Source: Mogibacterium sp.
GTDB taxonomy: Bacteria; Bacillota; Clostridia; Peptostreptococcales; Anaerovoracaceae
Assembly (NCBI GenBank): GCA_017434025.1
Contig: JAFRGC010000048.1
Coordinates: 1-32,974, forward strand
Length of the DNA: 32,974 nt
Reading direction: 5' to 3'
Part shown: positions 16,920 to 24,329 of the stretch, in pieces
How positions within the stretch are numbered: the stretch's first letter is position 1
How the letters are laid out: every line of letters begins with the position of its first letter
Made by a program: the position numbers and the translations under genes
The notes under the pieces: model-generated
The model's input: only the letters and a program-made list of their open reading frames with translations
What the model was told of the DNA's origin: nothing
The model's database searches: none

Positions 16920-17798
16920 ATGGAGAATTCACGCTGCAAAGCATTCATCGAATGCGTCAACAGCGGCAGCATCAAAGGCGCCGCAGACACCCTGGGTTAT
17001 ACTCCTTCGGCGATCAGCCAGCTGATCACAGCGTTCGAGAAGGAGCTCGGACTCAAACTTTTCGTGCGCACACAGAGAGGGGTCATCCTGACACAGGAAG
17101 GCCGCGAACTCGTTCCGCTCGTCCGTTCTTATCTCGAGCGCGAGCAGGAGATCTACCGTTATGCTGCTGAGACCAGAGGCATAACCATGGGCAAAATCAC
17201 GATCGCGACTTACCCGAGTGTGGCGACGACGTGGCTGCCGGAGATCGTAAGGCGTTTCAAGAACGACTATCCGGGCATCCAGTTCAGTATCAGGGAGTGC
17301 ATCAGAGAGGATATCTTCCACTATCTGGATCAGAACGAGGCGGACCTCGGATTCCTGGCATGGTCGGAACCGATGCCTTATGACTGGATCCCGCTTGCTG
17401 AAGAGCAGGTGATCGCGGCAGTACCGGAGGATCATCCGCTTGCCGGTGCTGCAAGCTTCCCGGTCAGAGAGTGCGAGAACTACGATTTCATTCTCGGATC
17501 TTGGGGCAGGGAGCTCGAGATCCTGAACATCCTCGAGCAGAACGATGCCCATCCGGAGATCAAATACACGACCTACGACACACCTGCGACAATGGCGATG
17601 GTGCGCATGGGACTCGGGATCAGTTTTGTCAACGCCTTGAGCGCGCAGTACTGGAACGAGCATCTGGTCAAAATGCCGCTCGATCCACCGGCAAGCATCG
17701 AATTCGGCATCGCCGTTCCATCGCGCGAACACATGACCAGCGCAGCGAAGAAATTCCTTGATTACGCAGTCAGCTATATGGCAGACATAGAGAAATAG
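16920..17798 (+). CDS. LysR-family transcriptional regulator
   Basis: A 292-residue LysR-type regulator. Residues 1-60 form the winged helix-turn-helix (AADTLGYTPSAISQLITAFE is the recognition region, KLFVRTQRGVILTQEG the wing). Residues about 90-292 form the periplasmic-binding-protein-like effector domain, opening GKITIATYPSVATTWLPEIV. The effector cannot be deduced. It lies 62 bases after purL on the same strand with no terminator between, so read-through from the purine cluster is likely. LysR proteins usually act on a divergent neighbour, but none is present: upstream is purL and downstream is an intergenic repeat region. The ATG has a GGAGG site 10 bases upstream. It may act at a distance. 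Confidence 0.88.
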   Translation: MENSRCKAFIECVNSGSIKGAADTLGYTPSAISQLITAFEKELGLKLFVRTQRGVILTQEGRELVPLVRSYLEREQEIYRYAAETRGITMGKITIATYPSVATTWLPEIVRRFKNDYPGIQFSIRECIREDIFHYLDQNEADLGFLAWSEPMPYDWIPLAEEQVIAAVPEDHPLAGAASFPVRECENYDFILGSWGRELEILNILEQNDAHPEIKYTTYDTPATMAMVRMGLGISFVNALSAQYWNEHLVKMPLDPPASIEFGIAVPSREHMTSAAKKFLDYAVSYMADIEK

Positions 17799-17804
17799 CG
17801 GGGA

Positions 17805-17869
17805 GACAGGGGACGGTTCTCTGTCCCCTTTTTGCTGCCCAGAAAAGAGACAGAGAACCGTCCCCTGTC
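17805..17869. repeat. REP-like inverted repeat (perfect 21-bp arms)
   Basis: GACAGGGGACGGTTCTCTGT plus C (17805-17825) is the exact reverse complement of 17849-17869, with 23 bases between. The arms extend imperfectly on both sides (about 17800-17875). The sequence type, GGGGACGGTTCTCTGTCCCC, resembles REP elements scattered in many bacterial genomes. A T-rich run after the right arm (17878-17885) may let it also act as the LysR terminator. Confidence 0.85.
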
Positions 17870-17885
17870 CCCTCTCTTGTTTTTT

Positions 17886-17926
17886 CACACAAACAAAAGC
17901 CCCGTCCTTGCTCAAGGGACGGGGCT
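17886..17926 (-). terminator. Rho-independent terminator of the minus-strand small gene
   Basis: A perfect 10-bp stem, AGCCCCGTCC (17898-17907) with GGACGGGGCT (17917-17926). Read on the minus strand, the stem is followed by TTTTGTTTGTGTG, as a terminator for leftward transcription requires. On the plus strand the 3' side lacks a T run, which fixes the orientation. Confidence 0.8.
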
Positions 17927-18018
17927 CTGCTATTATCTAAAACCTTTTTCGAGACAGTGCTTAGGTGCCTATATGAGAGGCTCAGGATAATATGTGATGA
18001 GGTTGAATGAATAATTGA

Positions 18019-18102
18019 TTACTTGTGATAAGCCTTTGAATAAAATACCCACTTGCAAACGAGTACTGCTACATAAGCTGCTACTACGATTACTGTCATC
18101 AT
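18019..18102 (-). CDS. 27-residue hydrophobic small protein, unrecognised family
   Basis: A small gene not recognised by family. The minus-strand ATG (18102-18100) is followed by a second ATG and ends at TAA (18021-18019). The peptide begins MMTVIVVAAYVAVLV, a continuous membrane-spanning stretch, then C16-K17-W18 and an aromatic, basic tail ending YHK. The size and layout fit small membrane proteins or type I toxin peptides, but no specific family is assigned. Support comes from its signals: AGGAGGAGGT eight bases before the ATG, a near-consensus promoter with a 17-base spacer (18228-18200), and a terminator (17926-17886), together defining a transcript of about 300 bases. A 5' leader hairpin, CCGGC-CCGGC type, lies near 18165-18180. 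It is flanked on both sides by REP-like repeats. The weak point is the short length; conservation in relatives would settle it. Confidence 0.68.
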   Translation of the reverse strand: MMTVIVVAAYVAVLVCKWVFYSKAYHK

Positions 18103-18199
18103 GGTCCTGTACCTCCTCCTGTTGGTCCGCTGATAATACCTAAGAGTATATGTCGATCCGGCAATTCCAGCCGGCGTGTCTGTATCTCTTTACAAGTGC

Positions 18200-18228
18200 A
18201 TTCTATCGCTAAGCCAGCTTAAAGTAAA
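18200..18228 (-). promoter_or_regulatory. Sigma-A-type promoter of the minus-strand small gene
   Basis: On the minus strand TTTACT (18228-18223) and TAGAAT (18205-18200) are separated by exactly 17 bases. Each hexamer has one or two differences from consensus. Transcription would start near 18193, leaving a leader of about 90 bases before the ATG at 18102. Confidence 0.65.
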
Positions 18229-18282
18229 ATAAATGTTTTTGACGAACTCTTTAAGTTGCACTTAATTTGATGCATCGGGAAG

Positions 18283-18309
18283 GAGACAGAGAACCGTCCC
18301 CTGTCCCCT
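18283..18309. repeat. Third, solitary copy of the REP-like repeat
   Basis: These 27 bases are identical to 17847-17873, the right arm of the inverted repeat on the other side of the small gene. This copy has no inverted partner nearby. It lies just upstream of the kinase-operon promoter. Confidence 0.85.
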
Positions 18310-18354
18310 GTGTTCCCTCCCTTACTGGCTCCTCGCCTTATGTTATGATATTAT

Positions 18355-21524: not shown

Positions 21525-24329
21525 ATGGATAATTACGACAGAAATCATACAAAACCGCTCGACCGGTATCTGACACCGCTCGATGTATGGGCTATGGCTT
21601 TCGGCTGCATGGTCGGCTGGAGCGCATTTGTCATGCCGGGAACGACTTTTCTGCCTATCGCCGGACCGCTCGGAACGATCATCGCCATGCTGCTCGGACT
21701 TCTGGTCATACTGGTGATCGGGTACAGTGTCTGTTATCTGATGGAAAGAAGCCCGCGCACGGGCGGCATGTATTCATATACCAAAGAAGCATTTGGGCGT
21801 GATCACGCGTTCCTCTGCTCCTGGTTCCTCTGCCTGTCATACCTGACAATAGTCTTCCTCAACGGAACAGCATTGTTCCTGGTGATACGCACATTGATGG
21901 GCGATTCCATGACAGGGGAACCGCTTTACACCGTAGCCGGCAATCCGATCTATACCAAAGAGATCGTGCTGTCTGTCGGCGCACTGGCCGGTATAGGAGT
22001 GCTCTTCATCGTAGCGAAGCCTGTACTGCAGCGCCTGCATACGGTGCTGGCTGTGATCCTTGCGCTTGGAACAGTCATTACGTCGGTCTGCTGCCTGCCG
22101 GCTGCTCTGGCGTCAGGCGCCATTGGCTCCTACGGATTTACCGGCGTCAGCAAGGGATATGCGATCTTCAGCCTGATCATCCTGGCGCCGTGGGCCTTTG
22201 TAGGATTTGAAATAACTTCATTTGAAACTGCGCACTTCAAGTTCAGCGTCAGGAAATCAAGGCCGGTCATTTTCACAGCGATCATCCTGGCGGCCTTTGT
22301 ATATACCGCGATGGCTCTGGTGAGCATCTCCGTTGTTCCGGATGGATATGCATCGTGGGTGGACTATATCGGGAGTCTCAATGAGTTCAGCGGAGTCATG
22401 TCGGTACCGACCTTCTATGCCGCCAGACAGATGATGGGCACAGCCGGACTTGCTCTCATAGGGATCACGGCACTCGCTGCCATACTGACAGGCATCATCG
22501 GAGCATACAGAGCTACTATGCGAGTGCTTTCTACGATGGCCGAAGACAGGATCCTCCATGGGGTCTTCTCCAACACCGCCGTCAGCATCATGTTCATCAT
22601 GGTGCTGTCGATACTGATATCGCTTCTCGGCAGGAATACTCTCGGCTGGTTTGTAGACCTCACATCATTCGGTGCGATCGTCGCTTACGGATACACTTCC
22701 GCGGCAGCATTCAAGATCGCAAGGATCGAGGGCAAGCGCAAAATCATGATCACCGGCGCGATAGGCACCGCGATCTCGGCCATGTTCGCGTTCGTACAGT
22801 TAGTGCCTCATATGCTGGCGCTTGACGCGATGGGGAGCGAAGCTTTCCTACTCCTTTCCCTGTGGTGCCTGCTGGGATTCGTATTCTACTGGCGCACCAT
22901 CAGGCGCAGCACACTGACGGAGTACAGCGGGATGTCCACTTCGGGAACAGTCCTCTTCGCGCTGCTGGTATACGCAGCGATCCTGTGGCTTGCCAAGAGG
23001 ATCGAGCAGCAGGCGAGTCCAGAGCTGGTGCGCGGCATACTCCATCCGGGAGGAGTCGTGGTCCTGATCATAATCTTTATCGGGCTGACCGTCATGCTGT
23101 ATATACAGAACCTTGTGCGTGTCAAGCATGAGGCGGCCGAGAGAGAGAAGATTCGCGCGGTGGAAGGGAGCCTGGCGAAGAGCCAGTTCCTCTTCAACAT
23201 GTCGCACGACATCCGCACACCTATGAATGCGATCCTCGGCTACACGAGTCTCGCCCTTAAGGAGCCAACATCAGACGAACAGCGGGACTACCTGACCAAA
23301 ATAGAAGCATCCAGTCAGCATCTGCTGGCGCTCATCAACGATATCCTCGAAATGAGCCGTATCGAGAGCGGCAAGATCGAACTCGATTATGCTCCGGCAG
23401 ATCTGTGCGGGATCGTCGAAGACCTATATGATCTGTTCGCAGAGCAGATGAAGCAGAAGAACATGGACTTCTCCATCCACACGACACAGGTCCAGAACCG
23501 CTGCGTGTGGTGTGACAGGAAGAACCTCAACCGCGTGCTTCTGAACATCATCTCCAATGCGTACAAATTCACTCCTGAGAATGGTACTATCTCGGTCTCG
23601 ATCCATGAGACCGGAGCCGTTGCGAATGGATACGGCTCTTATGAGCTGCGCGTCAAGGACAGCGGCATAGGGATGTCCAAGGAGTTCGTCGAGAAGATGT
23701 TCAATGCATTTGAGCGCGAACGCTCCTCTACAGACAGCGGAATCGAAGGAACCGGTCTCGGACTTGCGATCACCAAGAGTATCGTAGATCTCATGGGCGG
23801 CACCATCGATGTATTCACATCACCGGGCAGCGGCACAGAGATCGTTCTCAGATTCAAGTTCAGAACGGCAAGCGAGGAAGATATCCAGATCGAGACCGCA
23901 GCAGGCGGAACAGATGATGGAGACGATATTGACTTTGCGGGAATGCGCCTCCTGCTGGTCGAAGACAACGCTATCAATATGGAGATCGCCAAAATGATCC
24001 TCGAGCAGATGGGATTTGTCGTAGAGACCGCGGAGAATGGCAGGATCGCAGTGGATATGGTCACGGCATCACAAGCGGGATACTATGATGCGATCCTGAT
24101 GGATATACAGATGCCTGTAATGGACGGATATGCCGCAGCCAGAGAGATCCGTTCGCTGGCAGATGAAGAGCTTGCAACCATACCTATACTGGCGATGACA
24201 GCCAATGCGTTCAAAGAAGACGTACAGGATGCCGAAGATGCAGGCATGCAGGCGCACATTGCTAAGCCTATAGATATAGGAACTCTATCCGAGACGCTAA
24301 GATCGGTATTGAGAAGAAACGGGAGATGA
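21525..24329 (+). CDS. APC amino-acid permease fused to a hybrid histidine kinase
   Basis: A 934-residue fusion. Residues 1 to about 530 are an APC-superfamily transporter: LTPLDVWAMAFGCMVGWSAF and VMPGTTFLPIAGPLG form the first, substrate-binding helix region, and SPRTGGMYSYTKEAFG is the classic loop after helix 2. Roughly 12 membrane segments follow. A short charged linker (RVKHEAAEREKIRAVEGSLA) leads to HisKA with H561 in FNMSHDIRTPMNAILGY. The HATPase shows NAYKFTPENG, DSGIGMSKEFV and GTGLGLAITKS. A single receiver has D860 in LMDIQMPVMDG and Lys in IAKP. The substrate is unknown; an amino acid or amine is inferred from the family. It may transport, sense, or both, comparable in principle to CbrA, which joins an SSS-family transporter to a kinase. 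Its kinase half differs clearly from those on either side. Confidence 0.92.
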   Translation: MDNYDRNHTKPLDRYLTPLDVWAMAFGCMVGWSAFVMPGTTFLPIAGPLGTIIAMLLGLLVILVIGYSVCYLMERSPRTGGMYSYTKEAFGRDHAFLCSWFLCLSYLTIVFLNGTALFLVIRTLMGDSMTGEPLYTVAGNPIYTKEIVLSVGALAGIGVLFIVAKPVLQRLHTVLAVILALGTVITSVCCLPAALASGAIGSYGFTGVSKGYAIFSLIILAPWAFVGFEITSFETAHFKFSVRKSRPVIFTAIILAAFVYTAMALVSISVVPDGYASWVDYIGSLNEFSGVMSVPTFYAARQMMGTAGLALIGITALAAILTGIIGAYRATMRVLSTMAEDRILHGVFSNTAVSIMFIMVLSILISLLGRNTLGWFVDLTSFGAIVAYGYTSAAAFKIARIEGKRKIMITGAIGTAISAMFAFVQLVPHMLALDAMGSEAFLLLSLWCLLGFVFYWRTIRRSTLTEYSGMSTSGTVLFALLVYAAILWLAKRIEQQASPELVRGILHPGGVVVLIIIFIGLTVMLYIQNLVRVKHEAAEREKIRAVEGSLAKSQFLFNMSHDIRTPMNAILGYTSLALKEPTSDEQRDYLTKIEASSQHLLALINDILEMSRIESGKIELDYAPADLCGIVEDLYDLFAEQMKQKNMDFSIHTTQVQNRCVWCDRKNLNRVLLNIISNAYKFTPENGTISVSIHETGAVANGYGSYELRVKDSGIGMSKEFVEKMFNAFERERSSTDSGIEGTGLGLAITKSIVDLMGGTIDVFTSPGSGTEIVLRFKFRTASEEDIQIETAAGGTDDGDDIDFAGMRLLLVEDNAINMEIAKMILEQMGFVVETAENGRIAVDMVTASQAGYYDAILMDIQMPVMDGYAAAREIRSLADEELATIPILAMTANAFKEDVQDAEDAGMQAHIAKPIDIGTLSETLRSVLRRNGR

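Follow-up and report, generated by a model that had tools for sequence, protein, structure and literature searches.

The minus strand of a 32,974-nt stretch of Mogibacterium sp. DNA (contig JAFRGC010000048.1; the whole stretch is hereafter called the window) carries a mini-gene for a 27-residue peptide. On comparative analysis, its product is probably a small membrane regulator or subunit induced by a LysR-type protein, in the manner of WatR and WatS. According to this account, LysR-A, encoded convergently, would occupy a dyad centred at -66 together with an imperfect dyad over the -35 box and, once bound to its co-inducer, would activate the peptide promoter. The resulting message, with its strong Shine–Dalgarno (SD) site, would yield a 27-aa peptide that inserts as a single membrane helix, with the basic tail inside by the positive-inside rule. 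There, as a regulator or accessory subunit, it would tune a membrane partner, for which a transporter is the likeliest candidate. The elements of the locus are as follows.

16920–17798, plus strand: LysR-A, 292 aa, with HTH_1 and LysR_substrate domains (Pfam); convergent with the peptide gene; proposed activator
17890–17928, minus strand: intrinsic terminator read from the sequence, a GC-rich hairpin (about 17897–17928) followed by CTTTTGTTTG
18019–18102, minus strand: 27-codon ORF for the predicted basic membrane peptide MMTVIVVAAYVAVLVCKWVFYSKAYHK; 30 homologues in 27 of 47 genus genomes
18111–18120, minus strand: ribosome-binding site AGGAGGAGGT, 8 nt 5′ of the ATG (18102)
18200–18205, minus strand: -10 box TAGAAT, with a 17-nt spacer to the -35 box; predicted start at about 18193
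18219–18233, minus strand: imperfect dyad TTTATTTTACTTTAA over the -35 box; candidate LysR activation site
18223–18228, minus strand: -35 box TTTACT, read from the sequence; same geometry in the homologues
18251–18265, no strand assigned: operator dyad TTAAGTTGCACTTAA; candidate LysR recognition site, centred at -66 from the predicted start

The mini-gene and its peptide family

Every signal described in the original prediction was present: a minus-strand promoter, a leader of about 90 nt from the promoter to the SD site and ATG, the SD site itself, the 27-codon ORF, and the terminator. The accompanying argument was that four such signals would rarely be aligned by chance. Within 801 bases, two promoter-like sites were observed against 1.4 expected, so that the promoter match alone is not significant, and four terminator-like sites were observed against 0.5 expected. 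What takes the signals beyond chance is their conservation in relatives, which extends to the ORF, the promoter geometry, the dN/dS ratio, and the hairpin. The mini-gene is almost certainly a real gene, and the sequences compared here document its family, the selection on it, its promoter geometry, and its pairing with a LysR.

With the 27 residues as the query, a first search hit 25 of 60 relatives at E ≤ 10, including a genome (G011) that was later dropped as a homologue because its match lacked both an SD site and a dyad. A profile built from 19 sequences then recovered, at E ≤ 1.8e-10, 30 copies of the ORF in 27 of the 47 genus genomes. The E value then rose to 5e-4, and matches at or above that value, mostly partial or within longer frames, were discarded. 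Among 297 genomes sampled from the order, none outside the genus scored below E 1e-3 (best outsider, 0.0026). The relatives are Mogibacterium-like gut metagenome-assembled genomes (MAGs). Many of the genomes are incomplete MAGs, so that absences are soft. Ribosomal protein L2 was not found in the window's own, incomplete genome.

The 30 basic peptides are 27–36 aa long, with net charges of +3 to +5. In the 19 that were aligned, a hydrophobic core is followed by an invariant Lys. Hydropathy, the only criterion used here, predicts one membrane helix, with window values of 2.2–2.8. A G-rich SD sequence lies 5′ of the listed start in the homologues, and a terminator-like hairpin was detected 3′ of 19 of the 30 copies and, by that scan, in none of the other 11. 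As in the original prediction, in which no family was recognised, none of the 10 peptides compared with each library exceeded a curated cut-off in Pfam or NCBIfam; the best scores were 13.7 bits against cut-offs of 27 and 23.8 in Pfam, and 13.5 bits against 38 in NCBIfam.

Conservation and dN/dS at the locus had been proposed as a check on the gene. Besides the homologues described above, dN/dS values of 0.06, 0.33, 0.15, 0.28, 0.13, and 0.12 were obtained for six groups of close relatives covering 20 of the 30 copies, indicating from substitution patterns that the family is under purifying selection. No ORF frameshifted between conserved flanks, the case named as counting against the gene, occurred among the 30 copies, all of which were chosen for having the ORF.

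The possibility that the locus specifies a dual-function RNA, which had also been raised, is unlikely because predicted leader lengths range between 36 and 98 nt across the 30 copies and the fold is unremarkable: the whole transcript has a z score of -1.78, and 4 of 100 shuffles were as stable. No Rfam family reached its gathering score for the mini-gene; the loose matches, all under that score, were mostly microRNA models on an inverted repeat at 17797–17877. This inverted pair of the GACAGGGGACGGTTCTCTGTC repeat lies just downstream of the mini-gene, and one further copy lies just upstream (18280–18314). Similar sites number at least 20 in the same genome, and GACAGGGGACGGTTCTCTGTC has the appearance of a dispersed REP-like element bracketing the mini-gene. 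Elsewhere in the window, positions 21525–24329 encode a 934-aa protein in which an amino acid permease domain is fused with histidine kinase and receiver domains (Pfam).

The candidate operator dyad and LysR-A

The original prediction described the promoter but missed both the operator dyad at 18251–18265 and the acidic sister module considered below. Every one of the 30 basic copies has the operator TTAAGT-N3-ACTTAA, with 9–12 of 12 matches, at precisely the same distance of 37 nt 5′ of the -35 box, and its centre falls at -65 or -66 from the predicted start. At least 10 of 12 positions matched in 29 of the 30 copies, compared with 3.3% of dinucleotide-shuffled upstream regions (the initial shuffles for the dyad and for antisense sites were mononucleotide; dinucleotide shuffles were made later, for the operator only). 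The -35/-10 geometry is the same in all 30. In the consensus of these upstream regions, TTAAGTgcaACTTAA is followed by an imperfect TTAAcTTTACTTA over the -35 box and by the -10 box; TTAAcTTTACTTA would represent, by sequence, a second and weaker site toward the -35. The dyad at 18251–18265 is the sole perfect one in its own genome. Across the genus, 15 perfect dyads in 11 of 47 genomes amount to the background level, given 13 for a reversed-pattern control. Five of these are at basic promoters, three are upstream of acidic genes, and seven are elsewhere.

LysR proteins with at least 55% identity to LysR-A were found in 32 of the 47 genomes, namely in 26 of the 27 with the basic peptide and in 6 of the 20 without it (p = 1.4e-6, uncorrected for kinship). 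In 16 of the 27 genomes, the LysR-A gene converges directly on the peptide gene. In the other 11, the peptide lies away from LysR-A among varying neighbours, including genes for URO-D family proteins with RACo and a 2-hydroxyglutaryl-CoA dehydratase-like gene with a Na+/H+ antiporter. Clustering of 20 loci revealed no neighbour gene common to all peptide loci. One genome (G009) encodes a pair of basic peptides but lacks a LysR at ≥55% identity, and four (G063, G012, G006, and G021) contain LysR-A without the basic peptide. In G063, inspection by eye of the region 3′ of LysR-A showed that the dyad, TTAACTTTACTTAA with the 37-nt spacing unchanged, and a terminator are kept; as this region contains no peptide ORF bearing an SD site, the peptide has likely been lost.

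The main argument for control is that the dyad follows the LysR family across genera. It was present at 11 of 12 matches within 150 nt upstream of 9 of 10 checked LysR-A orthologues that are unlinked to the peptide. Among 14 LysR relatives from other genera (39–48% identity), seven have a dyad with 11–12 of 12 matches 25–115 nt before their start and seven lack a good one; a fifteenth (L201), excluded from the 14, showed no dyad in a looser scan. The peptide gene is very probably under LysR control. The 18 named loci with a LysR relative comprise seven from Mogibacterium sp. and six from Clostridiales MAGs, all 13 at 60–80% identity, and five from Oscillospiraceae, Tissierella, and Megasphaera at 39–45%. 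In two other genera, hydrophobic ORFs of 29 and 46 aa (L206 and L207) are divergent from the LysR, with AGGAGGTGTCGA before the ATG. These were rejected as further partners: the L206 peptide had no relative beyond its own genome among 246 family genomes (best other E, 0.029).

Type I toxins are short hydrophobic peptides made from small transcripts, and a toxin of this kind had been among the options originally offered. The peptide resembles them in its length, hydrophobicity, and small transcript, and it has a basic tail. One result leans toward that option: antisense promoter-like sites are slightly more frequent than expected, 14 of 30 copies having one compared with 8.3 expected from mononucleotide shuffles. 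However, these sites are scattered and no position-conserved antisense signal was found, and TTGATT, the antisense promoter proposed in support of the toxin, lies near the stop codon in 5 of 30 copies. Furthermore, each genome with the peptide carries only one or two copies, the promoter is of the activator (LysR) type, and the 27 residues had no match in plasmid and phage collections at E ≤ 1. A type I toxin, or a LysR-gated self-killing peptide that harms the membrane, is thus unlikely.

The acidic sister module

A paralogous LysR group (LysR-B), approximately 58–65% identical to LysR-A, is convergent with a second small gene that has an AGGAGG site. The peptides of this second family are 25–35 aa long, mostly with an acidic tail at the end, and have net charges of -6 to +1. 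The family occurs in 20 of the 47 genomes, including that of the window (contig C13). In sequence, the acidic promoters are a poor match to the dyad: at the place 37 nt 5′ of the -35 box, at least 8 of 12 positions match in 19 of 20 promoters, at least 9 in 13, and at least 10 in 2, with null expectations at one place of 0.75% for 8/12 and 0.17% for 9/12. An automatic best-match scan picked this place in 12 of the 20. The perfect dyads upstream of three acidic genes (L186, L191, and L193) are at other positions. For dN/dS, the groups compared span 14 of the 20 copies; values of 0.47 and 0.71 were obtained for two pairs with 14–15 differences, and in one pair synonymous changes were absent. An ORF with an integrase core, resembling an insertion sequence, lies between LysR-B and its acidic peptide (L148 and G012:C114:17280-17360), and the peptide ORF is still open. 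Many acidic leaders (L181–L200) contain an inverted repeat, ACGCC...GGCGT, between the promoter and the SD site.

In a tree of 58 LysR proteins, all 16 basic-linked proteins fell in clade A (30 rows, support 100/99) and all 17 acidic-linked proteins in clade B (20 rows, support 95/80), and peptide partners were not exchanged between the two clades. These clade-specific peptide types, together with the fixed operator spacing, make LysR control look central. Both also argue against the peptide being a small subunit, made constitutively, of a membrane enzyme or carrier, for which LysR control would be one input among others, as does the lack of a neighbour gene common to all loci. Such a subunit would fit the conserved core and invariant Lys of the 19 aligned sequences and the location of several loci near one-carbon genes (purL, RACo, and genes for a formiminotransferase-cyclodeaminase domain protein, a THF dehydrogenase, and a URO-D family protein). 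On balance, we consider it unlikely.

Both peptides are encoded in 17 of the 47 genomes, only the basic one in 10, only the acidic one in 3, and neither in 17. In two genomes (G015 and G066), the basic and acidic modules are adjacent, accompanied by a second basic copy. Two small families of opposite mean charge under parallel control, both present in 17 genomes, could be the partners of a leaderless secreted system, such as a two-peptide bacteriocin or a signal. However, no exporter or immunity gene was common to the 20 clustered loci, 13 genomes (10 and 3) hold one family only, and the segment looks membrane-spanning, so that secretion is very unlikely. It is also conceivable, though rather doubtful, that the basic and acidic peptides pair through their charged tails within the membrane and that the activity of a partner common to both follows the ratio of two metabolic signals. 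If true, such pairing would constitute a switch with two inputs, made of peptides about 27 residues long, each owned by one LysR paralogue.

Proposed function and comparison with known systems

The reading that we favour, a LysR-induced small membrane regulator or subunit, agrees with the membrane-protein regulator that was one option of the original prediction. Binding, activation, topology, partner, and function are its inferred components. A transporter is suggested as the partner because EamA genes adjoin several related LysRs, which is a hint only: they are divergent at three loci (L136, L203, and L211) and upstream on the same strand at two (L151 and L180). In several genomes (L170–L178), a pair of TRAP transporter genes precedes the unlinked LysR-A; Pfam confirmed the DctP protein at L170.

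The two unnamed microprotein families come with a candidate regulator, an operator, and a sister module in uncultured gut bacteria. Their pairing with LysRs turns an orphan peptide into a testable chain of ligand, LysR, peptide, and partner. It also suggests that microproteins can be discovered through the operator of a LysR clade rather than through the peptide sequence; the acidic family surfaced in this manner. Searches of the open-access literature found nothing describing this exact LysR–peptide system. LysR-controlled membrane microproteins have a precedent, but no paired LysR paralogues with microproteins of opposite charge came up in these searches.

The usual LysR layout (PMC8407307, PMC3382589) consists of a T-N11-A recognition dyad upstream and a second activation site nearer the -35, with the PltR box, for instance, at -74 to -53. 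The promoters described here share this layout but differ in that they serve a microprotein gene, with a convergent rather than divergent regulator gene. The closest precedent is WatR of Methylomonas sp. DH-1, a LysR-type protein that (PMC10355033) directly controls unannotated small ORFs encoding one-helix membrane peptides (WatS) and also binds its own promoter; overexpression of WatS1 raised acetate tolerance only when the WatABO pump was present. The two systems are alike in combining a LysR-type regulator with one-helix membrane peptides from small ORFs, a likeness at the level of description. They differ in that the WatS peptides are about 50 aa long and their sites overlap that of RNA polymerase, whereas the peptides here are 27–36 aa long with the dyad at -66. 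Moreover, the present system would have one genomic target site and a pair of LysR paralogues, each linked to a separate peptide, the two peptides differing in charge. One-helix small proteins of E. coli offer a further parallel by description, with AcrZ tuning a pump (PMC10355033) and MgrB tuning a sensor kinase; they are similar as small membrane regulators and differ in the regulators that control them.
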